From contig JAKLKB010000093.1 of the NCBI GenBank assembly GCA_023150835.1, positions 1 to 26,931 of the forward strand: a stretch of DNA of 26,931 bases. The letters run 5' to 3'. This stretch comes from Myxococcota bacterium. Its GTDB lineage: Bacteria > Myxococcota_C > UBA6777. The notes beneath the pieces were generated by a model. That model was not told where the DNA came from, did not search any database, and saw only the letters and a list, made by a program, of their open reading frames with translations. The stretch's first letter is position 1. Every line of letters begins with the position of its first letter. The position numbers and the translations under genes are program-made. Shown here in pieces: positions 10,627 to 26,082 of the stretch.

Positions 10627-11640
10627 TCAAAACTCCATCACAGAACGCGCTGCTTTGAGGACGCGCTTGGCATCGGGAAGATAGGCGAGTTCGGTTTTTG
10701 CGTAGGGCATGGGGGTATCGTAGCCCGTCACGCGACCGATGGGAGCCAGCAGATTCAACATGGCTTCATCGTTGGCGAGGGCGATGATCTCTGCGGCTAC
10801 ACCGCAGGTTCGAGGGCCTTCGTGAACCACGACGCAACGCCCCGTCTTTCGGATGGAGGTCAAGATGGTTTCTTGATCCATCGGCATGATGGTGCGCAAG
10901 TCGATCAACTCGCAGGAGACCCCTTCTTGTTTGAGGGTTTCGGTGGCTTCGAGCGCAGGGCGCATCATGGCTCCATAGGAGATGATCGTCAGATCGGAGC
11001 CTTGTTGGAGGATCTTGGCTTTGCCGATGGGGACGGTGTAAGCCTCGACAGGGATCTCTTCGCGAAAAGCGCGATAGATGCGTTTGGGTTCAAGGAAGAT
11101 CACGGGATCTTCGTCGCGGATCGCGCTGATCAACAGCCCTTTGGCGTCGTAAGGCGTACTGGGGATCACCACTTTGATCGACGGCGAATGTGCAAGCATC
11201 GCTTCGTAGGATTCGCTGTGGTGTTCGGGGGCATGGATCCCACCGCCATAAGGCATACGCACCACCATCGGGAGATTGTGTCTTCCACGAGTGCGCCAAC
11301 GATAACGCGCTGCATGCGCAAGCAACTGGTTGATGGCGGGGTAAATAAATCCCATAAACTGCATCTCGGCGACTGGGCGAAGTCCTCCAAGCGCCATCCC
11401 AATGGAAACGCCCACGATCCCGGATTCTGCGATCGGTGTGTCCATCACGCGCTCGTCACCAAAGCGCTCCCACAGTCCCTCTGTGGCGCGAAAGACACCA
11501 CCGTCTTTGCCGATATCTTCGCCCAACAGGACGACCGATGGATCGCGTTCCATCTCGACAAGCAGGGCATTGGCGACGGCTTGGACGAGAGTGGCGCGCA
11601 TCGTCTTTGTAGCAGAAGTCGTTTGTGCAGCTTGGCTCAT
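10627..11640 (-). CDS. pdhB: Pyruvate dehydrogenase E1 component, beta subunit
   Basis: With the alpha subunit it forms the alpha2beta2 thiamine-diphosphate E1 that decarboxylates pyruvate and reductively acylates E2. The 337 residues include the conserved Glu72 in DTPIAESG, which activates the cofactor in this family, and HAPEHHSES (136-144), part of the active-site channel. The ATG overlaps the E1 alpha stop codon (ATGA), and GAAGGAG lies 8 nt upstream, so translation of the two subunits is coupled. The first 13 residues precede a second Met at 14, where homology probably begins. A branched-chain 2-oxoacid role is the main alternative. Confidence 0.94.
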   Translation of the reverse strand: MSQAAQTTSATKTMRATLVQAVANALLVEMERDPSVVLLGEDIGKDGGVFRATEGLWERFGDERVMDTPIAESGIVGVSIGMALGGLRPVAEMQFMGFIYPAINQLLAHAARYRWRTRGRHNLPMVVRMPYGGGIHAPEHHSESYEAMLAHSPSIKVVIPSTPYDAKGLLISAIRDEDPVIFLEPKRIYRAFREEIPVEAYTVPIGKAKILQQGSDLTIISYGAMMRPALEATETLKQEGVSCELIDLRTIMPMDQETILTSIRKTGRCVVVHEGPRTCGVAAEIIALANDEAMLNLLAPIGRVTGYDTPMPYAKTELAYLPDAKRVLKAARSVMEF

Positions 11641-12716
11641 GCGAGGTTCTCCTTCATGTCCTGCATCTGTTTACGAAGATGTTGAGGCATCTCGCCGCTA
11701 AAGGCTTGGCGGAAGGTTTCGAGGGGATCGGGTTTGGGGAGGTTTTCACGGTCTTCGACTTCTTTGGCGACTTCTGCGGCGATCTCTTCTTCCCACGTCT
11801 TGATCTGTTCGTCTGTGAGCTTCTTTTTGCTGCGCAGATAGGCATCGAGGCGTGCGATCGGATCGCGTGGCTTCCATGCTTCAACTTCGGCTGGATCGCG
11901 GTACTTCGTCGCATCATCGGCGGTGGTGTGGTCTTGCATACGGAAGGTGACGGCTTCCAACAGATACGGACCTTTGCCCGAACGAGCGTGATCTAGCGCT
12001 TCTTTGGTGGCTTGATAAGCCGCCATCACGTCGTTGCCATCGAATTGAAGTCCGGGGATCCCGTAGGCGATGCTCTTTTGAGCAAGCGTCGGAGAAGCCG
12101 TCTGCTTGTGGCGCGGTACGCTGATCGCCCACTGGTTGTTTTGGACGATGATTACAACAGGCGCACGAAAGGCCCCCGCAAAGTTGCAACCCTCGTGGAA
12201 GTCGCCTTCCGAAGTTCCGCCATCTCCAATAAATCCCAATACCGCACGATCTTCTTTGCGCTTGGCAAACGCCATCGCCATCCCCACCGCATGAAGGGTC
12301 TGTGATCCGACGGGAACGCAGATCGGTAGGCTGTTGACGCCTTCTGGGAAGACACAACCCCGCTCGTCACCGTTCCAATAGGTGATGATCTTCGACCCGG
12401 GAACGCCCCGCGCCATCATGATCCCTTGCTCGCGAAACGACGGAACCAGCCAGTCTTGCTTTTCCATCGCATAAGCTGCGCCGATCTGCGTGGCTTCTTG
12501 GCCGATCAAACTTGCGTACGTCCCCAAGCGACCTGTTCGCTGCAGGGCCAGTGCTTTTTCATCAAAGCGCCGAAAAAACAACATCCAACGGTACATCTCC
12601 AGCAGTCGATCGTCGTCGAGTCCTGCGGGTACGCCGATCGACTTATCGACTTTGCCCTTCTCGTCGAGGATCTGGAGATGTTCGATCTTCGCTTCAAAGG
12701 CTACTTTTCGAGGCAT
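11637..12716 (-). CDS. pdhA: Pyruvate dehydrogenase E1 component, alpha subunit
   Basis: This subunit binds thiamine diphosphate and Mg2+ for pyruvate decarboxylation. The 359 residues show the cofactor motif starting GDG at 164-166 (GDGGTSEGDFHEG) and ending in NN at 193-194, and the E1 alpha phosphorylation-loop-like region around QDHTTADDATKYRDP. The ATG at 12716 follows AGGAG with about 6-nt spacing. It is the first gene of the four-gene E1 alpha - E1 beta - E2 - E3 operon. Its upstream region holds an inverted repeat at 13061-13076 that also occurs before korA. The heterotetrameric E1 is of the Gram-positive/mitochondrial type rather than the fused AceE of enterobacteria. Confidence 0.94.
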   Translation of the reverse strand: MPRKVAFEAKIEHLQILDEKGKVDKSIGVPAGLDDDRLLEMYRWMLFFRRFDEKALALQRTGRLGTYASLIGQEATQIGAAYAMEKQDWLVPSFREQGIMMARGVPGSKIITYWNGDERGCVFPEGVNSLPICVPVGSQTLHAVGMAMAFAKRKEDRAVLGFIGDGGTSEGDFHEGCNFAGAFRAPVVIIVQNNQWAISVPRHKQTASPTLAQKSIAYGIPGLQFDGNDVMAAYQATKEALDHARSGKGPYLLEAVTFRMQDHTTADDATKYRDPAEVEAWKPRDPIARLDAYLRSKKKLTDEQIKTWEEEIAAEVAKEVEDRENLPKPDPLETFRQAFSGEMPQHLRKQMQDMKENLA

Positions 12717-13060
12717 GCGCTTCTCCTGATGATATCCTTTATTTTATTTCGTGAGACTTTGTAGGCACTTGGAATGTGGTAATTACGTACCCCTTGGATC
12801 GGGGCCGCAGAAAATCGGTGATGCCGATGGGGCCTTGTATCGTGCTTTTTCGCACGCCTCTAGGCACCCAAGCACCGATCCCCTCCAGCCGATCTGCTGC
12901 CCGTGTCTTTCCAGACAACCGATGGGGTAGACGTGCTGAAGAGCGCGGACTCTCCGAGAGAAAGAAGTGCCGTCAGGCGGTCTGTTTGCCGCAAAGTCGC
13001 GCAAGTCTTAACATGACACCCCCGCCTTGTAAAGCCTTTTCGCCTGACCTTCCCCGTATA

Positions 13061-13076
13061 TTGAACAACAGTTCAA
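13061..13076. promoter_or_regulatory. Operator-like inverted repeat upstream of the PDH operon
   Basis: TTGAACAACAGTTCAA is a perfect inverted repeat with 6-bp arms and a 4-bp centre. On the minus strand it reads TTGAACTGTTGTTCAA and is followed at once by TATACG, a possible -10 element, so a bound repressor would block a promoter here. The same core, TGAAC-N3-TGTTCA on the minus strand, occurs in front of korA at 25831-25844. The regulator is unknown. Confidence 0.5.
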
Positions 13077-13159
13077 CAAGTCTCTTGGACTTCCTTTCGT
13101 GTAACGCGGTGGGTTGGGTGGAAGCCATGTTTTTACGGAACTCCGGCGCGGTGGGACTT

Positions 13160-13175
13160 ATACGATATCCGAGTG
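13160..13175 (+). repeat. Solitary end of the miniature inverted-repeat element
   Basis: ATACGATATCCGAGTG is identical to one end of the element at 26707-26822 (read on the minus strand), but the sequence that follows is unrelated, so only this terminal piece is present. Confidence 0.5.
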
Positions 13176-13202
13176 AAGTGTTCCTACGGAACTCCTATGC
13201 GA

Positions 13203-13886
13203 TCAAAAATGCCCGACAAAAGCGAATCCGAGGTTGGTTCCTTCGGTTGCAGAAGCCGAGAAGGTCGGAACGATGGTGAAGGGCATCACTTCGGCGAGGC
13301 GACTCGGTTGTTTCAACCCAGCCACGAGGTTGACGATGCTCCACGCCAAAGCACCCAGCCCCAAGAGAGTCAACCCGATGTGTCCAAGCCACCCGATCTC
13401 CGAGATGTTGCCTGTGTCCAGAACAAACCACATCGTGCCCCAAGCCAGCGCGATCGTCGAAGCGACAATTCCGATGATGCCCCAGACTCTTTTGTGCAAG
13501 AGGTTCTTGCCGATCGAGACGATCAATTGTGCGAGCATCACGCCCAGATGAACGGGCATGGTTGTGAACAGCGATACAAACAGCCCAAGATTCGTGAACG
13601 GCAGCTTTGAGTTCAGGTGTATTGTGTCGAGAAGCTCGTGGGAGTGGGCATCGTTGGGCGTGGAGGGGGTCGGAAACCAAGCGCGTTGGAAGCGAGTGTG
13701 GAGTTCGGCAGGTTTGGAAAGACGCGCAAGCAAGGGGCGTTCAAGCCAAGCGGGTTGAGTGGCCGAAGTGCGCGGAGTGTCGGCTTGCGCGGGAGTCGCC
13801 CAAAGCAGTGCAACGCTCCAACACAACACCACCCACAACAAACGGACAGGCACCGACAAACCAAGAACAGAGATCGGTTTCCGCAT
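13203..13886 (-). CDS. Small multi-pass membrane protein, function unknown
   Basis: The protein has 227 residues. A hydrophobic N-terminus ends in a possible signal-peptidase site, AQA|D, near residue 35. A hydrophilic stretch (36-95) follows, then three probable membrane helices (about 99-126, 134-156 and 165-191) and a short tail ending VPTFSASATEGTNLGFAFVGHF-like, that is, a VPT...G-x-G-F pattern closing in Phe. I recall similar tails in hypothetical proteins of Myxococcota; this is memory, not a search. The ATG at 13886 follows AGGAG. The gene lies 33 nt downstream of the hydratase-family gene and is probably co-transcribed with it. I cannot assign a role. Confidence 0.8.
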   Translation of the reverse strand: MRKPISVLGLSVPVRLLWVVLCWSVALLWATPAQADTPRTSATQPAWLERPLLARLSKPAELHTRFQRAWFPTPSTPNDAHSHELLDTIHLNSKLPFTNLGLFVSLFTTMPVHLGVMLAQLIVSIGKNLLHKRVWGIIGIVASTIALAWGTMWFVLDTGNISEIGWLGHIGLTLLGLGALAWSIVNLVAGLKQPSRLAEVMPFTIVPTFSASATEGTNLGFAFVGHF

Positions 13887-13919
13887 GAAAACTCCTGTGG
13901 CAAAGGGCGCGCTTTTACG

Positions 13920-14726
13920 CTACATACCCTTGTAATCGCCTTTGCGCTTTTCAAAGAAAGCGGCGAGAGCTTCGGTGAAGTCTTGGGAAGCGATGGTTTG
14001 GGCGAAGTGTAAGGCGTCGTCTTCGGTATCGAGGTTATCTTCTTTGGTGATCTCGCGGAAGACCGATTTGATGGTGCGCATCGCCATCGGTGGTTTGCTT
14101 GCGAGAGCGAGGGCCAAGCGTTCGGCTTGTTCGTCTTCTTGCCCTTCGCCGACTTGATAAAACGCCCGATCGGGTAGAGAGCCGATCTGGACTTTTTCGC
14201 CGACCATCGCCAAGCGACGCGCCCAAGGTAGCCCAAACTCCCGCACCACCCGAGGCAAGATGCCCCATCCAAGATGAAGGCCACGATCGATCTCGGGAAA
14301 GCTCAAGCGAGCGCTTGGATGGGCCACGCGAAAATCCGACGCTGTGATCAGACACGCCCCACCACCGATCGCATGCCCTCGCAAGGCCGCCACCGTCGGC
14401 ATCGGCAAACTGATCCATCCCTCGATCACTTGTTGCCCAAGCTTTGCAAAGCGCATCCGTTCTGTCCGTCCCTCCGTCATCAACGCTACTAATTCTTCAT
14501 CGTTAAGATCGACGCCTTGGCAAAAGTCTTCTCCTGTGGACCACAACAACACAGCACGCACCCACTCGTCTTGCGCGAGTGCATGGACGATATCATTCAA
14601 TCGTTCAAGTGCTGCGATATTCAAACGATTGCCGGGGGGCCGATCCAGCCGCAGCTTGACCACATGCTCCGCGCTCTCTACCCGCCAACCCGCACCCGAA
14701 TAACTCTCCCATTCATCCGCTCTCAT
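13920..14726 (-). CDS. Enoyl-CoA hydratase/isomerase (crotonase) family protein
   Basis: Crotonase-fold enzymes act on acyl-CoA thioesters. The 268 residues show the two oxyanion-hole segments, GEDFCQGVDL (65-74) and RGHAIGGGACL (116-126). In classical hydratases two glutamates do catalysis, 20 residues apart. Here the second is present (Glu145 in FPEID) but the first position is Cys125, so plain hydration is doubtful; isomerase, hydrolase or another crotonase activity is possible. The ATG at 14726 follows AAAGGAG. It is the first gene of a probable two-gene unit with the membrane protein at 13203. No other beta-oxidation gene is nearby. Confidence 0.85.
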   Translation of the reverse strand: MRADEWESYSGAGWRVESAEHVVKLRLDRPPGNRLNIAALERLNDIVHALAQDEWVRAVLLWSTGEDFCQGVDLNDEELVALMTEGRTERMRFAKLGQQVIEGWISLPMPTVAALRGHAIGGGACLITASDFRVAHPSARLSFPEIDRGLHLGWGILPRVVREFGLPWARRLAMVGEKVQIGSLPDRAFYQVGEGQEDEQAERLALALASKPPMAMRTIKSVFREITKEDNLDTEDDALHFAQTIASQDFTEALAAFFEKRKGDYKGM

Positions 14727-14802
14727 CGGCTCTCTCTCCTTTGTTTTGGATTCTCCAAGCTACAATACTTGCTCGTCTTTGCGCAACTGCTCCTTTGGAT
14801 GG

Positions 14803-15000
14803 TACGATATCCGAGCGAATTGTGATCGCGATGCCAACGCGATCCGCTGTAATTGCCCTGTTTTTGGGCAGCCACAGGGGGCTGCCCCTACGTTTTACGA
14901 CGATACGATGGGCGGATCTTGTATGAAATTGCCCTGTTTTTGGGCAGCCACAGGGGGCTGCCCCTACGTTTTACGACGATACGATGGGCGGATCTTGTAT
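14803..15000 (+). mobile_element. Miniature inverted-repeat element, copy with internal 76-bp duplication
   Basis: The left end TACGATATCC (14803-14812) matches as an imperfect inverted repeat the right end GGATCTTGTAT (14914-14924). The centre is a hairpin GGGCAGCC/GGCTGCCC (14866-14887). A 76-bp segment containing the hairpin and right end is present twice in tandem (14851-14926 and 14927-15002). The element has no coding capacity. It lies between the divergent hydratase-family and lipoprotein genes. Confidence 0.6.
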
Positions 15001-15002
15001 GA
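14851..15002 (+). repeat. 76-bp direct repeat, two identical copies
   Basis: Copies at 14851-14926 and 14927-15002, each starting AATTGCCCTG and ending TCTTGTATGA, appear identical over their full length, which implies a recent duplication. Confidence 0.95.
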
Positions 15003-15075
15003 GTGTCGCTTGTTGGATCGGTTTGGTGGGGCGCGGCTCCCCACCTCGCGTGATCCTGATCTGTGATCTCGGTGT

Positions 15076-15089
15076 GCATAAAATTATGC
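15076..15089. promoter_or_regulatory. Palindrome upstream of the lipoprotein promoter
   Basis: GCATAAAATTATGC has 6-bp arms (GCATAA/TTATGC) and a 2-bp centre in an AT-rich patch about 90 bp upstream of the -35 box. It could be an operator or activator site. Its binding protein is unknown. Confidence 0.3.
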
Positions 15090-15177
15090 GAAATAAGCGA
15101 CGACCTATACAGCCCGATGCACCGTTGATTTCGCCGTTCGTGGTGTGAAATCGAGAGATCTTGATCAGATATCCGTC

Positions 15178-15205
15178 TTGACATTTTCTTTTGTTTCACT
15201 ATATC
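15178..15205 (+). promoter_or_regulatory. Sigma-70-type promoter of the lipoprotein gene
   Basis: A perfect TTGACA (15178-15183) is followed after 16 bp by TATATC (15200-15205). Transcription would begin near 15212, giving a leader of about 115 nt before the ATG at 15328. Confidence 0.55.
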
Positions 15206-15327
15206 CCCCGCCCATCTTCCTTTTGATCAACAGCGAATGCTTGTGTTTGGCTTGTTGTGTTTGGACTCCAGCGTAGCAGAGAGTGGCGCGTATGGGGTGT
15301 TTCTTTGGCCTTTGGAGGGGCTTTACG

Positions 15328-16548
15328 ATGAAAAGATTCCGCGTGTTGTTGTGGGCGATGTTGTTGTCTTCTGTGAGCGTCGTGGCTTGCGGAGAAGAAT
15401 CGTTGGAGCGCCAAGCTGCGCCGTTGGCGATGACTTCGGTTCCTTCTTGGCTGCGTTATTTCCCGAATGATTGGGCTTGCGATCAGACGATGAAAGGCCG
15501 ATTTGTGGGAATCGATAGCGCGCATATGTACCGTTTCCCCGGAAAACTCGGCTATCGCTATACGTTTCATTTCAAAGCGACGTACCATCCGTCCAACGGC
15601 GCAGCGATCGCGATCTATACGCTCGACAACGGCGCACGCGTCGCTTACACCCGCGCTTCTTACAAAAACGAAGTGAGCGTCACCTACCAAGCCACCCGCA
15701 ATGTCGCTTATCTCGTGGCTGTGTATAGCTTGTGGCCTCGCACAACGGGAACGTACTCCTTGCACGCTGCTTGCGTCCGTACCCAATACTGCCTCGAATA
15801 CGAAACCGCAGACGAACAAGGCCAATCCTACCGCAATCTCTACGCGATCAACGTCTCTTCCGAAGCCGAAGCAAAACAACATCTCGCAAACGTCGGACCC
15901 ATCGTCACTTCCACCGTTCGCGAAGGCTCTTGCGCAAGCCAAAGCACCGCTTGCCCCTATTACTACGCCCCGATCTGCGCTGACACACCCGCTCCCCAAG
16001 GAACGCACAGCAACGTCTGCGCATTGCGCGCCCACATCCGCCAACAAGCCGGTGAAACCGGCCAATGGAAAGGTCATTGGGAAAAAGGTGTATGCAATCC
16101 AGAAGGTCAATTCTGCGGTGGTATCGCTGGTTTGCCTTGCCCCGAAGGTTACCAATGCGTTCTCGATGGCACCTATCCCGATGCTGGCGGAAAATGCAAA
16201 AAGACCGCTGTGTGCGATCCAACCAAGCCCGGTTATGATCCCTCCCAATGCCCCGTCGCTTGCAAACACGATTGTGATTGCGTTCGCATCGGTCGCGTTT
16301 GTCACGAAGGCTTCTGTGCTCCCCTTCGCCGCGCCAACTTCTGCACGTCTTGCACCGACGTCAACTGCAAAAAAGGTGAACCCTGTCTCCAACCCAACGA
16401 TGCCATCGGCATCTGCACTTGCACCGTTTCGGGTTGCCCCCAAGGTCAACTCTGCTGCACAGGCGGCGCTCGTCCCGCTCCCGGCATCGATCCTTATGCT
16501 TGTATGCCGATCGATCCTGCCACCAACTCTTGCCCTCTCCTTCCGTAA
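15328..16548 (+). CDS. Cys-rich surface lipoprotein with Kazal-like region
   Basis: The protein has 406 residues. The ATG at 15328 follows GGAGGGG. A short lipoprotein signal ends in the lipobox VVA|C with Cys21. Residues about 45-145 resemble a beta-rich pre-peptidase-type domain (RFPGKLGYRYTFHFKA, ending in YSLHAAC). From about 145 the protein is packed with cysteines: 31 in total, leaving 30 besides the lipidated one. A stretch CPYYYAPICA...NVCALRAHI resembles a Kazal-type inhibitor, then GQFCGGIAGLPCPEGYQC and further short Cys modules up to LCCTGG. It is exported, lipid-anchored and probably disulfide-bonded. Such proteins are common in Myxococcota. Protease inhibition is possible but unproven. 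Confidence 0.87.
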   Translation: MKRFRVLLWAMLLSSVSVVACGEESLERQAAPLAMTSVPSWLRYFPNDWACDQTMKGRFVGIDSAHMYRFPGKLGYRYTFHFKATYHPSNGAAIAIYTLDNGARVAYTRASYKNEVSVTYQATRNVAYLVAVYSLWPRTTGTYSLHAACVRTQYCLEYETADEQGQSYRNLYAINVSSEAEAKQHLANVGPIVTSTVREGSCASQSTACPYYYAPICADTPAPQGTHSNVCALRAHIRQQAGETGQWKGHWEKGVCNPEGQFCGGIAGLPCPEGYQCVLDGTYPDAGGKCKKTAVCDPTKPGYDPSQCPVACKHDCDCVRIGRVCHEGFCAPLRRANFCTSCTDVNCKKGEPCLQPNDAIGICTCTVSGCPQGQLCCTGGARPAPGIDPYACMPIDPATNSCPLLP

Positions 16549-16552
16549 TCTT

Positions 16553-16610
16553 CCTTCCCTCTCCCTGCGACGCTCGCAAAGCCTCGCTGCTGCCGCGAGG
16601 GGGAGGAAGG
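16553..16610 (+). terminator. Imperfect inverted repeat just after the lipoprotein stop
   Basis: CCTTCC...CTCCC (16553-16565) pairs imperfectly with GGGGGAGGAAGG (16599-16610), with an inner alternative stem CCTCGC/GCGAGG. It begins 5 nt after the stop codon. No T-run follows, so a terminator role is only plausible. Confidence 0.3.
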
Positions 16611-16667
16611 CAGAAAGTCTGAGCGCACAGAGATACCCCGCCGCCGTACTTTCCGTGGACTCTTCTT

Positions 16668-16793
16668 TTCGATATCCTCTGCGTGATGCCCGCGTTTTGT
16701 ACCCATGTAAGAGGGGGCCAGATGTGGCTTAACAAGGCGCGTATGGGGGCTGCCCCTACATCTTTACGATCACACAACGGGCGGATCTCGTAT
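16668..16793 (+). mobile_element. Miniature inverted-repeat element, degenerate copy
   Basis: The left end CGATATCC (16670-16677) and right end GGATCTCGTAT (16783-16793) correspond to the terminal inverted repeats of the family. The right half, from GGCTGCCCCTAC through TTTACGATCACACAACGGGCGG, matches the copy at 26707-26822 read on the other strand almost base for base. The left arm of the central hairpin is missing. The element fills the gap between two convergent genes. Confidence 0.55.
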
Positions 16794-16848
16794 CGTATGA
16801 TAAAAGACCTGCAAACACGGGGCTTTTTGTTCGCAAGCGGCTCCTTCT

Positions 16849-19029
16849 TCAAGAGAGGCCGAATTCTTTGCCTTGTTTGGCGCGCATGATGCGGGCGTAA
16901 AGTGGGGGGGCGATGCGGGAGAGCAGGTAAGACATCTTGGAGAGGGTGGAGGGAAGAAGCAGATCTTGTCGTTGTTCGATGGCAACGGCGATGGCGTCGG
17001 CGAGTTGCTCTGGGGAAGCGATCTGGCCGATGGTTTCGCGGATCTTGCTTTGTGTGCGTTGGCCGTTTCCTGAGAGAGCGTTTTGTTCGATGGCGGTTTG
17101 GGTGAAGGAGGGGCAGACCAACAGGACGTGGACGCCTGCGTCTTCGAGTTCAGCGCGCAAAGAGTCGAAGAATCCGTGGAGTGCGTGTTTGCTTGCGGCG
17201 TACCCTGTGCGTCCGATAAGGGGAGCAAAGCCCGCGACACTCGATATCGTTGCGATGGTGCCTTTGCGGGCCTTGAGGCTTGGGAGTGCGCATTGTGTGC
17301 AATGAACGGCCCCAAAGAAGTTGACATCCATTACGCGGTGAAGGACTTCGGCGCGTGTTTCGGAAAGCAGGCTGCGGTGGGTGATCCCCGCGTTGTTGAT
17401 CAGGATATCGATGGCCCCCCAATGCCCAAAGATCGCGTCGAAGGTGCGTTGACAAGCCGACAGATCGCGGATGTCGCAAACATACGTGAGTACTTCGCTG
17501 CCTTGTTCTGCGACCCTCCGACTTGTTTCGATCAAGCCCGTCTCCTCGACATCAAGCAGCGCAAGGCGGTGGTTCGGTTGCCCAAAGCGCAAGGCGAGAG
17601 CTCGCCCGATCCCTCCCGCTGCACCCGTGATCACGACGACTTTTGAAACCGAAACAGCGGAGGATGCGTGTTGTTTCGACGAAGAGGTCGATGCAGCGGA
17701 GGATGCGTGTTGTTTCGACGAAGAGGTCGATGCAGCGGAGGATGCGTGTTGTTTCGACGAAGAGGTCGATGCAGCGGAGGATGCGTGTTGTTTCGACGAA
17801 GAGGCCGATGCAGCGGGAAGAGGGGGAGATGTTCCCTGTTTGCTTTGGAGGTAGAGGAAGAAGACTTCGCGGGATGTTTTTTGGGGGGTATAGCCGAGAT
17901 CGCGTTTGAGCCGTTCGTTCGAGAGGACAGGGCGGTGTTTGAGGAACAAGATCTGTTCGGGTCCGTACTGCGTCAGATTCCATCGCTTGAGGTGAGTGAG
18001 CGATTGTTCGAGTAGAGCGGGAGGGAGCGCGACATAGGGTTTTCCAAGAAGTTTTGCGATCTCGCGCAGAGTGAGGATGCCGTCACCGATTAGATTGTAG
18101 ATGCCTGTTTTCGGGGTATGGATGCCGATCAGGAGGGCCTGCACGACGTCTTGATCCCAGACAAATTGGAAGGGGACGGTGGAGCCTCTGAGACCTGTGA
18201 TGATCGGCTTTTCAAAGATATCGGTGATTTGATTGGAAACGGACGCGCCAAGGATGGTTCCGGGGCGCAAGATAAGCTGTTGAAGTTGAGGGGATTGTGC
18301 GCGCACTTGCGCGAGATACTCTTCCACAAGCCGCTTGTGATCCGAATAGGCGAAGACCTGATTTCCACGCAGAGGGCAATCCTCGGTGAGTAGGGGAGGA
18401 TTGTCGGGGTGATAGCCATAAGCCGCACCGCTGCTTGTGACGATCAGTTTTTTTCCTTGGTGGGCAAGGAAAGCGCGAACGACATTTTTTGTGCCTTCGA
18501 CATCTACCGCGTATTGAAAGGCCCGATCCATGCCCTTGGGCGGAGTCACGATCGAAGCGAGGTGGACGAGCGTATCGATCTTGTATCGCGCAAACACACC
18601 CGCGATCGAAGGATCACGGATATCTTGTTGAAGATAGGTGATGCCGTCGATGCGTTCGGACTGATCAGGGATTCGGATATCCATCGCAACGATGGTGTGG
18701 AATCCCCTCGGCTCCTGCGCCAACGCACGCAAGAGCAAACGACCGATGTATCCGCCCGCACCTGTAATCAATAACGCACTCCGCTGCTCGGTTCTTTGCG
18801 GATCGCAAAACTCCATTAGGCCGTCTGTTGTGGACTGTTCTTGTCTTCTTTGCGTGCTTTGCGTGCTTTGCGTGCTTTGCGTGCTTTGCGTGCTTTGCGT
18901 GCTTTGCGTGCTTTCCGTGTTTTCCGTGTTTAGCGAAGGGCGGGACTCCATTAGGCCGTCTGCTGTGGACTGTTCTTGTCTTCTTTCCGTGTTTTCCGTG
19001 TTTTCCGTGGACAGGTTTGGGTTGGTCAT
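16849..19029 (-). CDS. Double short-chain dehydrogenase: NAD-dependent epimerase/reductase fused to classical SDR
   Basis: Two Rossmann-fold oxidoreductases are joined in one 726-residue frame. The first (about 84-395) is an extended SDR with GAGGYIG (90-96) and YSDHK (YxxxK). The second (about 460-726) is a classical SDR with TGAAGGIG, INNAG, a Ser in ISSVAG and YAASK, so both look catalytically complete. They are linked by four copies of a 13-residue Ser/Ala-rich unit (SSSKQHASSAAST), encoded by a 39-bp tandem repeat. The first 75 residues are translated 9-bp repeat (STQ and TEN units) plus a duplicated RRQEQST-x-DGLME. They may be untranslated or useless: the ATG at 18816 would start just before the first domain, though it lacks a clear ribosome site. 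Substrates are unknown. The gene follows the thiamine-diphosphate enzyme gene by 58 nt. Confidence 0.85.
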   Translation of the reverse strand: MTNPNLSTENTENTERRQEQSTADGLMESRPSLNTENTESTQSTQSTQSTQSTQSTQSTQRRQEQSTTDGLMEFCDPQRTEQRSALLITGAGGYIGRLLLRALAQEPRGFHTIVAMDIRIPDQSERIDGITYLQQDIRDPSIAGVFARYKIDTLVHLASIVTPPKGMDRAFQYAVDVEGTKNVVRAFLAHQGKKLIVTSSGAAYGYHPDNPPLLTEDCPLRGNQVFAYSDHKRLVEEYLAQVRAQSPQLQQLILRPGTILGASVSNQITDIFEKPIITGLRGSTVPFQFVWDQDVVQALLIGIHTPKTGIYNLIGDGILTLREIAKLLGKPYVALPPALLEQSLTHLKRWNLTQYGPEQILFLKHRPVLSNERLKRDLGYTPQKTSREVFFLYLQSKQGTSPPLPAASASSSKQHASSAASTSSSKQHASSAASTSSSKQHASSAASTSSSKQHASSAVSVSKVVVITGAAGGIGRALALRFGQPNHRLALLDVEETGLIETSRRVAEQGSEVLTYVCDIRDLSACQRTFDAIFGHWGAIDILINNAGITHRSLLSETRAEVLHRVMDVNFFGAVHCTQCALPSLKARKGTIATISSVAGFAPLIGRTGYAASKHALHGFFDSLRAELEDAGVHVLLVCPSFTQTAIEQNALSGNGQRTQSKIRETIGQIASPEQLADAIAVAIEQRQDLLLPSTLSKMSYLLSRIAPPLYARIMRAKQGKEFGLS
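17654..17809 (-). repeat. 39-bp in-frame tandem repeat encoding the interdomain linker
   Basis: Four copies lie at 17654-17692, 17693-17731, 17732-17770 and 17771-17809. The outer copies differ by single bases from the inner two. The unit is 13 codons, so copy number can change without breaking the frame. Confidence 0.95.
18848..18928 (-). repeat. 9-bp tandem repeat in the 5' part of the double-SDR gene
   Basis: Seven perfect CTTTGCGTG units (18848-18910) are followed by two variants, CTTTCCGTG and TTTTCCGTG. A second small array of three variants is at 18983-19009. Each array follows a copy of a 46-bp segment starting CTCCATTAGGCCGTCTG (18811 and 18947), so the whole block was duplicated with a 136-bp offset. 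Confidence 0.93.
18983..19009 (-). repeat. 9-bp tandem repeat, second short array
   Basis: Three units (CTTTCCGTG, TTTTCCGTG, TTTTCCGTG) lie near the annotated start of the double-SDR gene and encode TENTE. They belong to the same family as 18848-18928 and 1-135. Confidence 0.85.
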
Positions 19030-19087
19030 TATCGTTTCTCTCGGGTGTTGGGGGGGGGAGGAAGTTTTCCGAAAGAGCGGGGGGGGA

Positions 19088-20848
19088 TTAGCCAGCGGGT
19101 TCTTGGTGCATATCCTTGAAGGTTTTGAGATTGGGAGCCCACATATGTTTGGTGGGGTCGACGTCGACGTGGATCACGGAGCAACGGCCCGAAGATTGTG
19201 CGCGTTCGAGGGCTTCGCGCAGACCGAATGGATCGGCGACTCGTTCACCATAAGCGCCCATTGCGCGGGCGAGTTGGTCAAATTCGATCTCATGCAGATC
19301 GGTGTTGATGGTTTCTTCGGGGCTGAGGGATTTCATCAGCAAGGTTTTGAGGGGTTTGAGGGCGAATTGTTGGTTGATCTTGACCATGCCCCACTGTTTG
19401 TCGCAGAGGACGAGGTAGATAATGGGGAGATGATTTCGGACAGCGGTTTCGATCTCTTGCATGTGAAAGCCCATCGCACCGTCACCGATGATGCAATAGA
19501 CTTGGCGTTGGGGGTAGGCGATTTGCGCGCCGATGGCTTGGGAGACACCCGCACCGAGCATGCCCATTTTGGGGGTTCCGACGAGGGCGTTGGGTGTGCG
19601 GACTTGGTGGAAAAAGTGCGCCCAGATCGAGGTATTTCCGCCGTCGATCACGATAATCGCGTCATCATCAAAGAAGTCTCGGCAAGCGACGGGTACATGG
19701 GCGGGGTGCATGGGGATGGCGTGATCTTGGAGCATCTTGTCGAGTTCTTGTCGGCGCTTTTGCGTGTTTTGGAGGATGCTTTGTCGGGCTTGTTGGCGGT
19801 GGGAAGGGATGGCGGGATGGAGGCGTTCGAGTTCCTTGTTGAGGGCTTGGAGGAAAGTCTTGCAATCGGCTTGGATGGCGAGGTCGATGGGGCGGATATT
19901 TCCGAGGATCTCGGGATCGATATCAACTTGGATCATCTTTTGTTCGTTGGGTTTGGCCCAATAGGGGGCTTTGCCCCACCAATCGGTTTCACCGAGTCGG
20001 GAGCCTAGAACAAGCACGATGTCGGCCTTGTTTCGGGCTTCTGCGACGGCGTCCACATAGTGCATATGGGCGAGGCCCTCGGTGCGTTCGTCCAAAGCGG
20101 CGCGTGCAGCCCAACTGGTGGTGATCGTGGCTTGGAGTAGGCGTGCGGTTTCTTGAAGTTCGGCGAAGGCTTGGGCATGGATTACGCCTGAACCAACGTG
20201 GAGAAGGGGCTGTTTGGCATCCATGAGCATACGGCAAGCTGCGTGGATTTGGGTGGTGGTGGGGGCCAAGGGTTCAAGGACGCGGTAGCTGCTTGGGGAG
20301 CGAAACCATGTCGGATCGAGATCGTAGGTGGTATTCATGATATCTTCGGGGACATCGAGGTGTACGACGCCCGGGCGTCCTGTAAAACTGATCCGCAGCG
20401 CACGTCGCATCAGCTCTGCCACGCGGTCGATCGAGGGGACTGCGCAGCTCCATTTGGTCATGGGGCGGGTGACATCGACTTGGGGGAAGTATTGGTAAGT
20501 GCCGCCGCGTTCGGGATAGCTGATCCCTGTGCGGCGGGAACTTGTGATCAACAAAACGCGGTGGCCTTCGGCCTGTTCGACGGCGACGCCGGGGAGGATA
20601 TTGGCGACTCCGGGTCCGTTGCTTGCCATACACACGCCCAAACCTCCCGTGAGTCGGGCATAAGCGCCAGCCATGTGCGCTGCGCAAGTTTCATGGCGTG
20701 GGGAGATCAAAGCGATCCCGTTTTCTTCGAGCGTAGAGTAAAAGCCAAAATAAGTTCCATCGATGATGCCGAATACGTGCTTGACGCCTTCTGCGGCCAA
20801 CATCCGAGAGAGGATCTCACCGCCTTTGATCTTGTTTGGTTTTGCCAT
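19088..20848 (-). CDS. Thiamine-diphosphate-dependent enzyme, acetolactate synthase-like
   Basis: The 586 residues have the three-domain layout of the acetolactate synthase / pyruvate oxidase / decarboxylase family. The N-terminal pyrimidine-binding domain has the cofactor-activating Glu53 in SPRHETCAAHMAGA and the segment MASNGPGVAN. A central domain holds VLVLGSRLGETD. The C-terminal diphosphate-binding domain starts its motif at GDGAMGF (455-461) and ends it in CDKQWG, with Asp where the metal-binding Asn often sits. The true reaction cannot be read from sequence. No small regulatory subunit gene is nearby, so a branched-chain amino acid role is not supported. I chose the ATG at 20848; the frame is open to 21406, but the extra 186 residues look non-coding and would cross the promoter of the divergent regulator gene. 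Confidence 0.88.
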   Translation of the reverse strand: MAKPNKIKGGEILSRMLAAEGVKHVFGIIDGTYFGFYSTLEENGIALISPRHETCAAHMAGAYARLTGGLGVCMASNGPGVANILPGVAVEQAEGHRVLLITSSRRTGISYPERGGTYQYFPQVDVTRPMTKWSCAVPSIDRVAELMRRALRISFTGRPGVVHLDVPEDIMNTTYDLDPTWFRSPSSYRVLEPLAPTTTQIHAACRMLMDAKQPLLHVGSGVIHAQAFAELQETARLLQATITTSWAARAALDERTEGLAHMHYVDAVAEARNKADIVLVLGSRLGETDWWGKAPYWAKPNEQKMIQVDIDPEILGNIRPIDLAIQADCKTFLQALNKELERLHPAIPSHRQQARQSILQNTQKRRQELDKMLQDHAIPMHPAHVPVACRDFFDDDAIIVIDGGNTSIWAHFFHQVRTPNALVGTPKMGMLGAGVSQAIGAQIAYPQRQVYCIIGDGAMGFHMQEIETAVRNHLPIIYLVLCDKQWGMVKINQQFALKPLKTLLMKSLSPEETINTDLHEIEFDQLARAMGAYGERVADPFGLREALERAQSSGRCSVIHVDVDPTKHMWAPNLKTFKDMHQEPAG

Positions 20849-21267
20849 CTGTTGTTCTTTCTTTTGCAGGGTGCGCCCCTGTTGAGTGGAGGTCGTTGGA
20901 GCAGTGTGTACCGAGGAGCATCTTCGGAAACGCTGCTTCTTTCGCGCAGTTTCAGGTCGTCGGATCATATACCGAGGGGCATGTGCGATGAGAGCCGATG
21001 TTCTCGGCAAGACGGGCGAGATAGAGATATCTGAGAAATCAGCAAACGTCACCAAGAGAGACGTGGGGATCTTCTTGGAAATATCGCCAAGATAGCAGCC
21101 TTTCCAAAAAAGGGTCAAGGCATTTTTCTCGACAAAAGCGCAGCGGGCGCAGAGAAGAGGCTTGACAGAGTGCAGGATGCTCCCTACAGTCGGCCTTTCT
21201 GTGATCTTTTCGAGGCCCACCTTGCTGCTTTGGGTGAGGTGTGGGCGTGTCGGTGGCATAGGACAAC
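20849..21267. other. Divergent intergenic region thiamine-diphosphate enzyme / XRE regulator
   Basis: The 419-bp gap holds a strong plus-strand promoter at 21162-21190 and a weak stem-loop CTTGG/CCAAG near 21075. I found no TGAAC-type operator here and no gene. Confidence 0.6.
21162..21190 (+). promoter_or_regulatory. Sigma-70-type promoter of the XRE regulator gene
   Basis: A perfect TTGACA (21162-21167) is followed after 17 bp by TACAGT (21185-21190, four of six consensus bases). Transcription would start near 21197, about 70 nt before the ATG. Confidence 0.65.
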
Positions 21268-22107
21268 ATGGCCGTATTGAAAGACTTTCCTGCGCGTGTG
21301 CGTGCGAGACGCGAAGCGATGGGCTACACAGCCGAAGAACTCGCAGCCCATATCGGGGTCCAAGGCTCGTTTGTGGAGCGGATCGAAGAGGGGACGTATA
21401 TCCCAAAGCCCGATGTTGCGAGGCGTTTGGCGTATGCTCTTGAAGAAGCCGAAAACGACTACATGGAATGGGCCGGGCAACGGCTGTCTGCGGTCGAAAA
21501 ACCTCCGCCCAAACCTGCCCCTCGTCCTCGATATCCCGAAGCCCGCGAAGCCTTGATCGAGCTTTGCGAAGACCCCGAAGCGGCGCGCCAACTGTTTAGT
21601 GGCTCGTCGATCGGCCCCCTCGAAGCAGCCCTCTACGGTCTTTTGATCGACGGGATGTCGCAGCGGATGGCCGATTTTGGCTTTTGGGGATTCCTCCCGC
21701 CCTCGGACCCCTCGCGAGCCAACCAAGCCTCCGCGATCGATGGACCCCTCTTGCTCGAAGCCTTTTTCGAGATGCTGATCCATCCCGAAGGCGAGGCCGC
21801 CGATTACAAAAAAGTGTTCTCAGAGATGCTCGTTTCGTGGGCCTACGGCCCCGCACCCCACCACATCCTTGCACGCTTTCCTGACGGCCAACAACGCAGC
21901 TTTCGTCTCGCGTTGGTCGATCAACAAGGCTCCATTATCCCCGCCCTTCATCCCGAAGACCCCTTCTATGCGCTTTATCGTATGCTAACGCCTGTTCAAC
22001 GCGCCGATATCGCCGAGATTACCCGCGTCTTTCTTCGTCGCGATGGGCGACTCGAGATCCAAGCCGCACTCGAAGCACTCACCCGCTGGCACAAGATCCC
22101 TCGTTGA
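21268..22107 (+). CDS. XRE-family helix-turn-helix protein
   Basis: The 279 residues start with a Cro/C1-type helix-turn-helix (about 8-62: RVRARREAMGYTAEELAAHI, then GSFVERIEEGTYIPKP). A short Pro-rich linker (about 76-90, PPPKPAPRPRYP) leads to a helical C-terminal domain of about 190 residues with no motif I recognise, so it may bind a ligand or partner. It is probably a DNA-binding regulator, though proteins of this build can have other partners. The gene stands alone and diverges from the thiamine-diphosphate enzyme gene, which makes that gene a candidate target. The last eight codons, stop included, are the first part of a 36-bp tandem repeat. Confidence 0.85.
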   Translation: MAVLKDFPARVRARREAMGYTAEELAAHIGVQGSFVERIEEGTYIPKPDVARRLAYALEEAENDYMEWAGQRLSAVEKPPPKPAPRPRYPEAREALIELCEDPEAARQLFSGSSIGPLEAALYGLLIDGMSQRMADFGFWGFLPPSDPSRANQASAIDGPLLLEAFFEMLIHPEGEAADYKKVFSEMLVSWAYGPAPHHILARFPDGQQRSFRLALVDQQGSIIPALHPEDPFYALYRMLTPVQRADIAEITRVFLRRDGRLEIQAALEALTRWHKIPR

Positions 22108-22191
22108 TCCGTCCTTCCCCGCTGGCACAAGATCCCTCGTTGATCCGTCCTTCCCCGCTGGCACAAGCTCCCTCGTTGCTCCGTCCGTTGT
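22084..22191 (+). repeat. 36-bp tandem repeat spanning the regulator stop codon
   Basis: Two perfect copies (22084-22119 and 22120-22155) and a third divergent one (22156-22191) are present. The unit encodes RWHKIPR-stop plus 12 further bases, so each of the first two copies carries the same in-frame TGA. The gene end has evidently been copied into its own 3' region. Confidence 0.95.
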
Positions 22192-22285
22192 GTACATAAA
22201 GAGGTAGGGGCAGCCACAGGGGGCTGCCCAATAGTCGGGCGTTTACGTACTATCCTTTGCTGTGTGCATCGCTCGGATATCGTAT
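22178..22285 (-). mobile_element. Miniature inverted-repeat element between convergent genes
   Basis: The right end GGATATCGTAT (22275-22285), the centre GGGCAGCC/GGCTGCCC (22208-22229) and the piece CCGTTGTGT on the left match the family at 26707-26822 in the same orientation. The left terminal repeat is eroded and merges with the third 36-bp repeat. Its hairpin lies between the ends of the XRE gene and adk and could act as a bidirectional terminator. Confidence 0.55.
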
Positions 22286-22296
22286 CTCTCGCAGAC

Positions 22297-22860
22297 CTAA
22301 GCAAGGGCCTCTTTGATGCGCTGTTCGACTTCTTGGACAGTCCCCATGCCGTCGATCTTTTTGATCTTGCCGGTGCCTGCGTAATAGCCGATCAGGGGGG
22401 AGGTTTGTTCGTTGTAGACGCTGAGTCGTTTGCGGATGGTGGCTTCGTTGTCGTCGCTGCGACCTTCGATCTCAGCGCGTTTGAGGAGCCGTTGGACGAC
22501 GGCTTCTTCGTCGACTTCGAGGAGAACGACGGCATAGAGGGGGGCATGGAGTTCTTGAAGGAGTTGATCGAGGGCTTGGGCTTGGGCGGTCGTGCGGGGG
22601 AATCCATCAAAGAGGACGCGGATATCGGCCATCTGTTGAAGTTCAGCGCGGACCATCCCGATGATCACGTCGTCGGAGACGAGCTTTCCAGCGTCCATAA
22701 TCTGCTTGGCTTGGACGCCAAGATCAGTGCCACGTCGGACATGATCGCGGAGCATATCACCTGTGGAAAGTTGCTTGAGTTGGCGATTTTCGCAGATCTT
22801 GGTAGCTTGCGTGCCTTTGCCTGCGCCGGGTGGACCCATAAAGATCAAGGTTTCATTCAT
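22297..22860 (-). CDS. adk: Adenylate kinase, short form
   Basis: It catalyses ATP + AMP to 2 ADP in the cytoplasm. The 187 residues show the P-loop GPPGAGKGT (9-17), the AMP-binding segment STGDMLRDHV and DGFPR (85-89). The LID region (about 122-145, RAEIEGRSDD...RKRLSVY) is short and has no zinc-binding cysteines, so this is the lidless short type, smaller than the roughly 214-residue E. coli enzyme. The ATG at 22860 follows AAGGAG with 9-nt spacing; the in-frame TTG further up overlaps that site and is not the start. It lies 26 nt after korB and is probably read with korA-korB, an uncommon place for adk. Confidence 0.95.
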   Translation of the reverse strand: MNETLIFMGPPGAGKGTQATKICENRQLKQLSTGDMLRDHVRRGTDLGVQAKQIMDAGKLVSDDVIIGMVRAELQQMADIRVLFDGFPRTTAQAQALDQLLQELHAPLYAVVLLEVDEEAVVQRLLKRAEIEGRSDDNEATIRKRLSVYNEQTSPLIGYYAGTGKIKKIDGMGTVQEVEQRIKEALA

Positions 22861-22886
22861 CAAAAAAAACTCCTTCAAGCAAGGGG

Positions 22887-23927
22887 TTAACGCATCTCGG
22901 CCATCAAGGCTTGCAGGCTTTCAGGGCTTGGGCGTAGAGCTTCGGGGGCTTGGAAGGCGAGAGGGGTTTCGACCGTTCCAAGGAGGCTGTGCAGATCGCG
23001 GAGGTTGTTGTTGATGTAGAGCAGGCCGGTGATCAGTTCTTTGTTGACTTGGGCGTCGCGGAGGACTTTGATGGCTTGTGTAAAGTCCGTGGGGTCATGG
23101 CCTTTTTCAAGCTTTTTGAGGGTGATCCATGAGTCATCGTGGAGCTTGACTTGTTTGCGCTCGCCTTCGGCGTATTCGTCGATGGTGATCTCTTGATAAG
23201 CAGGGACGTGTGTAATGTCGTGGAGTGTGATCTTGTTGTCTTTTCCGAAGGGATAACTTTTCGTCGAGGACTCGTGGTTATTGAAGGTCACGCAAGGGCT
23301 GATGATATCGAGGATTGCGGTGCCTTTGTAGCTAAATGCGGCTTTGAGCAAGGTCTCGACTTGGCGTGGATCTCCTGCAAAAGAGCGAGCGACAAATCCG
23401 CAGCTTCCGATGATGGCTTCGAGGCAGATATCGATGGGGGGGAGGTCGTTGATTCCGGCGTATTTGAGCGTTTGGCCTTCGTCAGCGGTGGCGGAGAATT
23501 GGCCTTTGGTCAGGCCGTAGACACCGTTGTTTTCGATGATATAGACCATCGGTACATTGCGGCGAAGCAGGTGTTTGAATTGACCAAGGCCGATGGAGGC
23601 GGTGTCGCCGTCGCCGCTAACGGCGATGGTGATCAGGTTGTGGTTGGCGGCCATCGCTCCTGTCGCAACGCTCGGCATCCGTCCGTGAAGCGAGTTAAAG
23701 GCGTGGGAACGTCCGAGAAAATAGGCGGGGCTTTTGGAGGAGCAACCGATACCGCTGAATTTGACGGTACGTTGGGGGGGAAGGCTCAGGTCATACGCGA
23801 CGTTCATGATGCGTGCGCTGACGGAGTCGTGGCCGCAGCCCTTGCAAAGTGTCGAGGGAAGGCCCTTATAGTCGTTTTTTTCGAGCCCGACGGCGTTGGT
23901 TTTGAGGGTTTCGGTGACGTCTGACAT
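22887..23927 (-). CDS. korB: 2-oxoacid:ferredoxin oxidoreductase, beta subunit
   Basis: The beta subunit binds thiamine diphosphate and one iron-sulfur cluster and oxidatively decarboxylates a 2-oxoacid with CoA, reducing ferredoxin. The 346 residues carry the four expected cluster cysteines: Cys28 and Cys31 in CKGCGH, Cys62 in GIGCSS and Cys212 in SPCVTFN. The cofactor motif begins GDGDTAS (105-111) and ends in ENNGVYGLTKGQ. The ATG at 23927 follows AGGAGAT with 7-nt spacing and lies 15 nt after korA. 2-oxoglutarate is the usual substrate of this two-subunit type, but pyruvate or branched-chain acids cannot be excluded. Confidence 0.94.
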   Translation of the reverse strand: MSDVTETLKTNAVGLEKNDYKGLPSTLCKGCGHDSVSARIMNVAYDLSLPPQRTVKFSGIGCSSKSPAYFLGRSHAFNSLHGRMPSVATGAMAANHNLITIAVSGDGDTASIGLGQFKHLLRRNVPMVYIIENNGVYGLTKGQFSATADEGQTLKYAGINDLPPIDICLEAIIGSCGFVARSFAGDPRQVETLLKAAFSYKGTAILDIISPCVTFNNHESSTKSYPFGKDNKITLHDITHVPAYQEITIDEYAEGERKQVKLHDDSWITLKKLEKGHDPTDFTQAIKVLRDAQVNKELITGLLYINNNLRDLHSLLGTVETPLAFQAPEALRPSPESLQALMAEMR

Positions 23928-23942
23928 GGTGAGATCTCCTGA

Positions 23943-25799
23943 TCAAGCAAGGGCTTGGAGAAAGCGTTGGTGGGTCGTTTTGAGTTGTTCTTGGATCCAC
24001 GAAGCGCTGAGCGGCATCCCGTTTTGGCGGGATATGGAGATCAAGCGTGTGGCGTAAGCGGGATATTCTTGCAAGAGGATCCCGTGCATCTGTCCGTTGA
24101 AGTTGTTTTCGATCACATAGATGCGTTCGTAGGCATCGAGGAATTCGCCGATCTCTGGGCTGGTGGGGAGTGCGCGGATACGCAGATAATCAAAGCGCAG
24201 TCCATCTTGTTTGAGCAGATCGACGGCTTCGAGAATGGATTGGTGGTTGGTGCCAAAGGAAACGACGGCGATATCACCGCCTTGCTGTCGGACGATCTCG
24301 GGCTTGGGGACGTGTTGGCGTGCCGTGTCGAATTTGCGGCGAAGACGGATCATATTGGTTTCCCAATCTTCGGAACGCTCGCTATATGCGGCCTTTTCAT
24401 TGTGTCCCGTTCCGCGTGTAAAGTAGCCCGCCGTTGGGTGCTCCGTACCCGGGAGGGTGCGGTATGTCACACCATCGCCGTCCACATCGACGTATCGGCC
24501 CCATTTTCCGCCGAGTTCTTGGAGTTGTTCAGCGGAAAGGACTTTGCCGCGATTCATCGGGGTTTCGGGATAGGTGAAGGACTTGGACATCCACACGTTC
24601 ATGCCGAGATCGAGGTCGCTGAGAACAAAGACGGGGGTTTGGAAGAACTCTGCAAGGTCAAAAGATTTGTAGCCGAACTCGAAACATTCGGAGGGATCGT
24701 GCGGAAGCAAGATGATGTGGCGGGTATCCCCATGACCGAGGCGATAGGTGAAGGCGAGATCGCCTTGGGAAGTGCGGGTGGGAAGTCCTGTCGAGGGTCC
24801 GACGCGCTGAACATCCCAGATCACGGCGGGGATCTCGGCTTGGTAGGCGTAGCTTGTAAACTCCGCCATCAAGGAGATCCCGGGTCCCGAAGTCGAAGTC
24901 ATCGCACGTGCACCCGCCCAACCTGCCCCAAGCGTCATCCCGATCGCCGAAAGCTCATCTTCGGCTTGGATCACAGCATACGTTGCTTTGCCGGTCTTCG
25001 GGTCTTTTCGGAGCTTGGGCAAGTATTCGTTGATCCCGTCCGCAAGGCTCGTGGCGGGTGTGATCGGATACCATGCAAGAACACTCACGCCCCCATACAC
25101 GCTGCCAAGCGCCGCTGCTGCGTTTCCTTCGATCAAGATCATATCGCGGTTGCCGCCTTCGATGCGGTTGACCCAATAAGGATCGCGCTTGACGCAGTTG
25201 TTTCGCGCATAATCTGCCGCCAGATCGACCATCTGCATATTCAGATCGACGGCTTTTTGTTTGCCCGAAAAGTGCGTATCCAACGCGCTGCGGATCGCGC
25301 TGCGTTCGATCCCCAAAAGCTCCGCCATCATCCCCACATACACCATATTGGTGATGTATTCGCGCAAGTTCGGAGCAACACCGCTTTGCTTGACCAGATC
25401 TTTGACCGGCATCGCATAATAAACAACGTCTTCGCGATCTTCTTTGACAGGCAACGCATTGTCATAAAACACCACCCCCCCCGAAGGCACCGCAGCAAGG
25501 TCTTCAGCAAGGGTCTTGGCATTCAACGTCACCAAGATATCCCACGTGTCTCGATATCCCACATGCCCCGTGTGATTCAATCGAATGCGATACCACGTCG
25601 GAAGCCCCTGAATGTTCGAGGGAAACAGGTTCTTTCCCGACACAGGAATCCCCATCCGAAACATCGCTCGAAACAACGCGATGTTCGAGGTTTGGCTCCC
25701 TGTCCCGTTGGTCGTTGCCACGTTGATGCAAAAGTCATTGATCTGGCGTGCTTCTTGGGCCGTATTTTGCGGTTCGGAGGCTTGGCTGGTCTCGGTCAT
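23943..25799 (-). CDS. korA: 2-oxoacid:ferredoxin oxidoreductase, fused gamma-alpha subunit
   Basis: The 618 residues join a gamma domain (about 22-200, with GTGSQTSN at 32-39) to an alpha domain (from about 220, with EGNAAAALG at 224-232 and the substrate-binding YPITPAT at 244-250), as in KorA-type enzymes. There is no ferredoxin-like delta domain, so electrons must pass to a free ferredoxin. The ATG at 25799 follows AAGGAT with 9-nt spacing. It is the first gene of korA-korB-adk. An inverted repeat 31 bp upstream (25831-25844) matches one upstream of the pyruvate dehydrogenase operon. Confidence 0.94.
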   Translation of the reverse strand: MTETSQASEPQNTAQEARQINDFCINVATTNGTGSQTSNIALFRAMFRMGIPVSGKNLFPSNIQGLPTWYRIRLNHTGHVGYRDTWDILVTLNAKTLAEDLAAVPSGGVVFYDNALPVKEDREDVVYYAMPVKDLVKQSGVAPNLREYITNMVYVGMMAELLGIERSAIRSALDTHFSGKQKAVDLNMQMVDLAADYARNNCVKRDPYWVNRIEGGNRDMILIEGNAAAALGSVYGGVSVLAWYPITPATSLADGINEYLPKLRKDPKTGKATYAVIQAEDELSAIGMTLGAGWAGARAMTSTSGPGISLMAEFTSYAYQAEIPAVIWDVQRVGPSTGLPTRTSQGDLAFTYRLGHGDTRHIILLPHDPSECFEFGYKSFDLAEFFQTPVFVLSDLDLGMNVWMSKSFTYPETPMNRGKVLSAEQLQELGGKWGRYVDVDGDGVTYRTLPGTEHPTAGYFTRGTGHNEKAAYSERSEDWETNMIRLRRKFDTARQHVPKPEIVRQQGGDIAVVSFGTNHQSILEAVDLLKQDGLRFDYLRIRALPTSPEIGEFLDAYERIYVIENNFNGQMHGILLQEYPAYATRLISISRQNGMPLSASWIQEQLKTTHQRFLQALA

Positions 25800-25830
25800 A
25801 AGTTCGCGATCCTTTCTTCTCTGGCGCGTA

Positions 25831-25844
25831 TGAACAGGCGTTCA
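25831..25844. promoter_or_regulatory. Operator-like inverted repeat upstream of korA
   Basis: TGAACAGGCGTTCA has 5-bp arms (TGAAC/GTTCA) and a 4-bp centre. Read towards korA it is TGAACGCCTGTTCA, and the copy before pdhA is TGAACTGTTGTTCA: 11 of 14 positions agree, arms included. It starts 31 bp upstream of the korA ATG, a place where a repressor could block transcription or initiation. Confidence 0.5.
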
Positions 25845-26082
25845 AACGATGTAGTATGTTTCACGGGGGTACGCAAGATCCTACAAAACAGAACGCCATG
25901 ACTCGAACTGGGGTTGGGTGGCGTTGGGGTGTGGGGAACCTCGTGAGGTGTTATAGCCCACCCACAAAGTCCAACGCAAGAGCCACGTTTTTTTCCGTCG
26001 TATCGGTTCTCTTTGCGCTCTTTTACGCTTGTGGGTGGGTGGAATGGGTGGAATGGGTAGAATGGGCGGATGTCTTGATCTT

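Follow-up and report, generated by a model that had tools for sequence, protein, structure and literature searches.

In Bacillus, fatty-acid degradation is repressed by the TetR-family protein FadR (also YsiA; PDB 3whb, 1vi0 and 5gp9), whose operator in B. subtilis reads TGAATGANTANTCATTCA. We know of no case in which pyruvate dehydrogenase (PDH) or 2-oxoacid:acceptor oxidoreductase (KOR) is a FadR target. The FadR protein of T. thermophilus (TTHA0101) prefers TTRNACYNRGTNYAA (PMC5597230). A further TetR repressor, RolR of C. glutamicum, has an operator repeat, REP1, that is exactly TGAAC-N4-GTTCA, as cited in a paper that deals with AtsR and another operator and was used here solely for its RolR citation (PMC9210681). 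The LexA box of M. xanthus has been given as CTRHAMRYBYGTTCAGS (PMC9705874).

Here we describe a pair of matching palindromes ahead of pdhA and korA in a Myxococcota bacterium (GenBank assembly GCA_023150835.1, contig JAKLKB010000093.1), for which the best reading is that both operons may have been recruited into a TetR/FadR-type acyl-CoA regulon. To our knowledge nothing of the regulatory biology of this lineage has been described. The window is the whole stretch of DNA analysed, 26,931 nucleotides long. Comparisons were made across five genomes, namely that of the window (G000), one of the same genus (G001, the sister species) and three of other genera (G002, G003 and G004), a thin set because the phylum-level group yields five genomes only. 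The sites and genes of the two loci are these.

13061..13076, no strand: pdh site, inverted repeat TTGAAC-N4-GTTCAA with 6-bp arms, about 345 bp 5' of the pdhA start codon, putative operator
25831..25844, no strand: kor site, inverted repeat TGAAC-N4-GTTCA with 5-bp arms, ending about 32 bp 5' of the korA start codon, putative operator
11637..12716, minus strand: pdhA, pyruvate dehydrogenase E1 alpha (TIGR03181, 460 bits, cut-off 411)
10627..11640, minus strand: pdhB, E1 beta
9222..10625, minus strand: E2 dihydrolipoyl acyltransferase
7773..9209, minus strand: E3-like pyridine nucleotide-disulphide oxidoreductase (dihydrolipoyl dehydrogenase)
23943..25799, minus strand: korA, 2-oxoacid:acceptor oxidoreductase alpha (TIGR03710, 533 bits, cut-off 483)
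22887..23927, minus strand: korB, beta subunit
22297..22878, minus strand: adenylate kinase (adk), third gene of the kor operon
21268..22107, plus strand: XRE-type helix-turn-helix protein, a candidate regulator that was weighed but not preferred

On the plus strand of the window the pdh site reads TTGAACAACAGTTCAA and the kor site TGAACAGGCGTTCA; turned towards their genes they read TTGAACTGTTGTTCAA and TGAACGCCTGTTCA. The preliminary description had reported an operator-like repeat at both operons, and its positions, its 5- or 6-bp arms, its 4-bp centre and its agreement at 11 of 14 core positions were all confirmed, as was its naming of the genes, with pdhA and korA passing their family models and the operon partners as named. 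Both sites have the form of a TetR operator, a short inverted repeat in or close to a promoter, with arms of about 5 bp and a total length of about 14-16 bp. They lie at unequal distances from their start codons. A role of the pdh palindrome as a terminator was rejected, since nothing terminator-like is found at the site. Elsewhere in the window, positions 26083-26208 and 26240-26350 hold short repeats common to intergenic regions, with pieces about 74-77% identical and, near 26240-26350, the repeated unit gaggctgcggggaacgctcggaggcgctcaggtttcccttt.

The window holds no further exact TGAAC-N4-GTTCA, and near-matches with at most two mismatches occur about as often as chance predicts (13 against an expected 11.3). 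When the 7.56-Mb draft genome was scanned, the exact pattern occurred at the pdh and kor sites only, so that it is not scattered, while the pattern read backwards occurred three times and the 13-mer TGAACNNNNGTTC was found in 17 places. Sites matching at 9 of 10 positions or better are present at about 9 per Mb, mostly in coding DNA (10 in 1.12 Mb). One near-identical copy with a single mismatch (G000:C160:44849) overlaps the start codon of a GspC-like gene and is probably coding.

The same scan of the sister species gave exactly two exact sites, and these lie 5' of its own korA and pdhA. Across most aligned stretches the DNA of the window and of this species is 90-96% identical. Upstream of pdhA, conservation is poor up to about 20 bp before the site and is followed by a block of 123 columns with three substitutions and one indel, and all three substitutions fall in the 4-bp spacer of the palindrome, where positions 1, 3 and 4 differ (TGTT in the window, GGCA in the sister species). 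Such clustering has a probability of about 1.3e-5 if the changes were independent and of about 0.03 if they arose in a single event. Arms that are kept around a spacer that has changed are what is expected of an operator for a dimeric protein. The kor site is identical in the two species, which says little. A separate near-site, TTGAACAACGCTTCAA at G000:C139:23427 and TTGAACGCTGCTTCAA in the sister species (C218:6102), likewise has kept its arms and changed its spacer. It lies about 140 bp 5' of a 65-codon open reading frame that converges on a recX-like gene, and a second near-site, also 5' of this frame, lies about 43 bp away (L148:1501-1516 and 1544-1559; L143:1501-1516 in G001). The pdh and kor palindromes are thus real, conserved, genome-unique operator-like sites; probably they function as operators, and we think it likely, by a slightly narrower measure, that one factor would bind both. 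The earlier suggestion of a single dimeric regulator at the two operons gains support from sites that are unscattered and kept in a close relative.

In the three genomes of other genera, the KorA and PdhA proteins are about 61-70% identical to those of the window, and no site of the pdh/kor type lies 5' of pdhA or korA in any of them, which makes these two assignments genus-specific. The comparison of upstream regions in related genomes that had been proposed therefore shows the sites in the one close relative and in none of these three genomes. A near-site at -141 of the G003 kor operon was discounted, being within coding DNA, and upstream of kor in 16 homologues outside this group (Chloroflexi, Anaeromyxobacter and others) the best site matched at 7 of 10 positions at most. 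The gene order also varies: another gene closely precedes korA in G002-G004 (in G003 its product resembles a ferredoxin-NADP reductase-type flavoprotein), while in the genus of the window korA is first.

The motif itself is present in these genera at other genes. Among 13 exact sites in G002-G004, two lie just 5' of acyl-CoA dehydrogenase (ACAD) genes (G003 C67:106978 and G004 C64:96966), at a distance of about 50 bp from the probable start codons, and the two ACAD proteins are 51% identical to each other; at the G003 gene a second site (9/10) lies 140 bp further upstream. The remaining exact sites fall within coding DNA or next to genes of unrelated function (RNase Y-like, ribB-like and others), so that the ACAD link is made by two of about seven intergenic sites and was spotted post hoc. 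Motif sites at other genera's ACAD genes, rather than at pdhA and korA, mean that the motif is not specific to a balance between PDH and KOR, and the earlier idea as it was framed in those terms is not supported, which leaves the first interpretation supported in part.

Searching for TetR genes gave 14 in the genome of the window and 12 in the sister species; several of these loci have near-sites, and two are of interest. In the first (G000:C218, G001:C238), a TetR gene with TetR_N and TetR_C_35 domains is divergent from an ACAD gene, which is recognised by the G003 and G004 ACADs at 40-45% identity, and the intergenic region carries the 9/10 site TTGAACGAAGATTCAG. In the second (G000:C201, G001:C473), a FadR-like TetR gene is followed by etfB and then etfA, and the fadR-etfBA promoter carries the 9/10 site GTGAACGGGGATTCAG. 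Both sites are unchanged between the two species. The C201 protein has as its best NCBIfam model NF053878 (FadR) at 178 bits, below the 200-bit cut-off, its TetR_C_4/YsiA-like C-terminal domain is above cut-off, it matches the FadR structure 3whb with an E-value of 4e-35, and its recognition helix AGVADGTIYLYFKNK is the same as that of 1vi0. Orthologues of fadR and of the C218 TetR gene were not located in G002-G004. Beta-oxidation genes thus carry the motif in four genomes, exactly at ACAD in G003 and G004 and at 9/10 at ACAD and fadR-etf in the genus of the window, and together these sites indicate a fatty-acid or acyl-CoA regulon; the near-sites at the two TetR loci also lend support to the TetR-family factor that had been named among the candidates.

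A matrix trained on the pdh and kor sites and the G003 and G004 ACAD sites was applied to 1.91 Mb of G000, roughly one quarter of its length. It ranked the pdh site first and the kor site second, both being members of the training set, and of the sites outside that set the one at the G000 ACAD gene came 19th and the one at fadR-etf 143rd, so that in these 1.91 Mb the site in fadR's own promoter does not stand out. With such ranks both links rest partly on gene context: on sequence alone the ACAD link appears moderate and the fadR-etf link modest, and the function of the genes adds weight to each. The same scan shows two tandem weak TTGAAC-N4-GTT sites 24 bp apart (G000:C146; L274:7902 and 7926), which precede a gene for a chlorophyllase/PETase-like hydrolase whose start resembles that of a lipoprotein.

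Promoter positions allow the geometry of the sites to be compared, and those of the two operons are presumed as follows.

13028..13033, minus strand: presumed -35 of the pdh promoter, TTTACA, by consensus match only
13005..13010, minus strand: presumed -10 of the pdh promoter, TAAGAC (weak), by consensus match, which would place the operator near -71
25871..25876, minus strand: presumed -35 of the kor promoter, TTGCGT (weak, 3/6), by eye
25848..25853, minus strand: presumed -10 of the kor promoter, TACATC (weak), by eye, which would place the operator at about +4

A similar arrangement to that at pdh, TTKACA-N17-TATNNN, is readable 5' of pdhA in the three genomes of other genera. At kor the promoter scan gave no convincing promoter, and TTGCGT-N17-TACATC fell outside its best matches. 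Relative to starts predicted from the best sigma-70-like hexamers, the site centres lie at +5.5 (ACAD, G000), +15.5 (fadR-etf) and +10.5 (ACAD, G004), and at +9.5 relative to the second-best predicted promoter of the G003 ACAD gene. The sites would thus cover the predicted starts of the ACAD and fadR-etf promoters and also, on the reading by eye, that of kor, which suggests repression, while the pdh site at about -71 by the same hexamer scan would suit activation or a looped arrangement better than repression. The presumed pdh 5' leader (12717-13004, minus strand), of about 290 nt, is well conserved between the two species, and an Rfam scan of the window, this leader included, gave no match, so that an explanation by leader RNA was rejected.

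Tentatively, and a little short of an even balance, we take the two palindromes to be operators of one homodimeric TetR regulator of acyl-CoA metabolism, most likely the FadR-like protein of C201 and otherwise the TetR protein of C218. Considered separately, the case that the binding factor is a TetR protein of acyl-CoA metabolism is evenly poised, and that it is the FadR-like protein itself is a possibility we hold with some reserve. In the absence of long-chain acyl-CoA, the dimer would repress the ACAD, fadR-etfBA and kor promoters by lying across their start sites; at pdh it would sit about 71 bp 5' of the presumed start, too far upstream to block the polymerase directly, and we propose that it may activate there instead. 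Acyl-CoA binding would take the regulator off the DNA, whereupon beta-oxidation, electron-transfer flavoprotein and the ferredoxin-reducing 2-oxoacid route would rise and PDH would lose its support. That a single acyl-CoA-sensing TetR protein acts by position in all these ways, repressing beta-oxidation, ETF and kor at the start and activating PDH from about -71, so as to switch both the whole entry to acetyl-CoA and the choice of NAD or ferredoxin as electron acceptor, and that this was acquired in one genus, is unlikely as a complete scheme. Weighing against the acyl-CoA reading are the weak -35 and -10 of kor, the far-upstream pdh site, the 9/10 genus sites at ACAD and fadR-etf, which both end in ATTCA and not GTTCA, the pdhA and korA genes of G002-G004 that have no site, and the single close relative.

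Of the competing explanations, the one that survives best, though we think it rather improbable, is another regulator unlinked to fatty acids (a MarR, Rex-like, XRE or different TetR protein) that serves redox or 2-oxoacid control, with the likeness to the ACAD sites being convergent. The symmetric GTTCA palindromes of pdh and kor differ from the ATTCA-ended sites of the genus in its favour, but exact TGAAC-N4-GTTCA at the ACAD promoters of two other genera argues against it, and the boxes of Rex and of FNR/CRP have another geometry, the Rex consensus being of the TTGTGAA-N4-TTCACAA type, with arms unlike those of our sites. The XRE gene at 21268, which had been put forward as a candidate, adjoins the kor operon, and its counterpart in the sister species is 99.6% identical, yet it is single-copy in five of five genomes, and thus is present also where the sites are absent, and there is no good site beside its orthologues, so that it is not favoured. 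Chance, by which two unrelated short palindromes simply match, is less probable still: on a rough count, some 5-bp palindrome would occur twice with identical arms in the intergenic DNA of the window in about 1 in 10 cases, and with 90-96% identity between the two species some conservation of the sites is to be expected, so that the pair alone is within chance and the weight beyond it comes from the genome-wide rarity of the sites in both species, their presence in the sister species and the restriction of pdh-site changes to the spacer, together with the functionally coherent genes that carry the motif in other genera. LexA, with the pdh and kor operons in an SOS-type regulon, is the least probable of all and fits less well, for while the M. 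xanthus box (PMC9705874) fits the kor site at 14 of 14 core positions by our comparison, and CTGATA-N4-GTTCAG and CTGATA-N4-GTTCAA are present in the lexA promoters of G003 and G004, one side of these family boxes is CTGATA instead of TGAAC, the sister species has no good box in its lexA promoter, no lexA was found in the 93%-complete genome of the window, the site is absent at the only recA match of the genus (G000/G001), which itself scores below the recA cut-off, and none of the exact sites seen lies at a gene for DNA repair.

If the acyl-CoA reading is true, a TetR/FadR-type fatty-acid regulon extends to both main 2-oxoacid decarboxylating complexes, the choice between PDH and KOR gains a concrete and testable regulator, a regulon has been re-wired between genera of one family, and, in a bacterial lineage that is little known, fat burning is linked to central carbon metabolism. 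The addition to an already known type of regulon is small in scale, at two promoters. Among the titles and abstracts of the literature we saw no clear precedent for a TetR/FadR regulon that contains PDH and a ferredoxin oxidoreductase.

There is a close likeness to the FadR system of Bacillus: the C201 candidate is a relative with the same recognition helix, it is encoded with etfB and etfA, and an acyl-CoA dehydrogenase gene bears the motif, although the sequence and spacing of the Bacillus operator differ from those found here despite that helix. The LexA box of M. xanthus shares the GTTCA half and the N4 spacing of the pdh and kor sites but is asymmetric, and its targets are DNA-repair genes (PMC9705874). 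RolR, as cited, differs in having a 29-bp operator with a second repeat (PMC9210681), and no RolR relative was identified here. The FadR of T. thermophilus, while its operator has a 3-bp centre against the 4 bp seen here, recognises a half-site, TTRNAC, that matches TTGAAC, within a pseudopalindrome of nearly the same length (PMC5597230).
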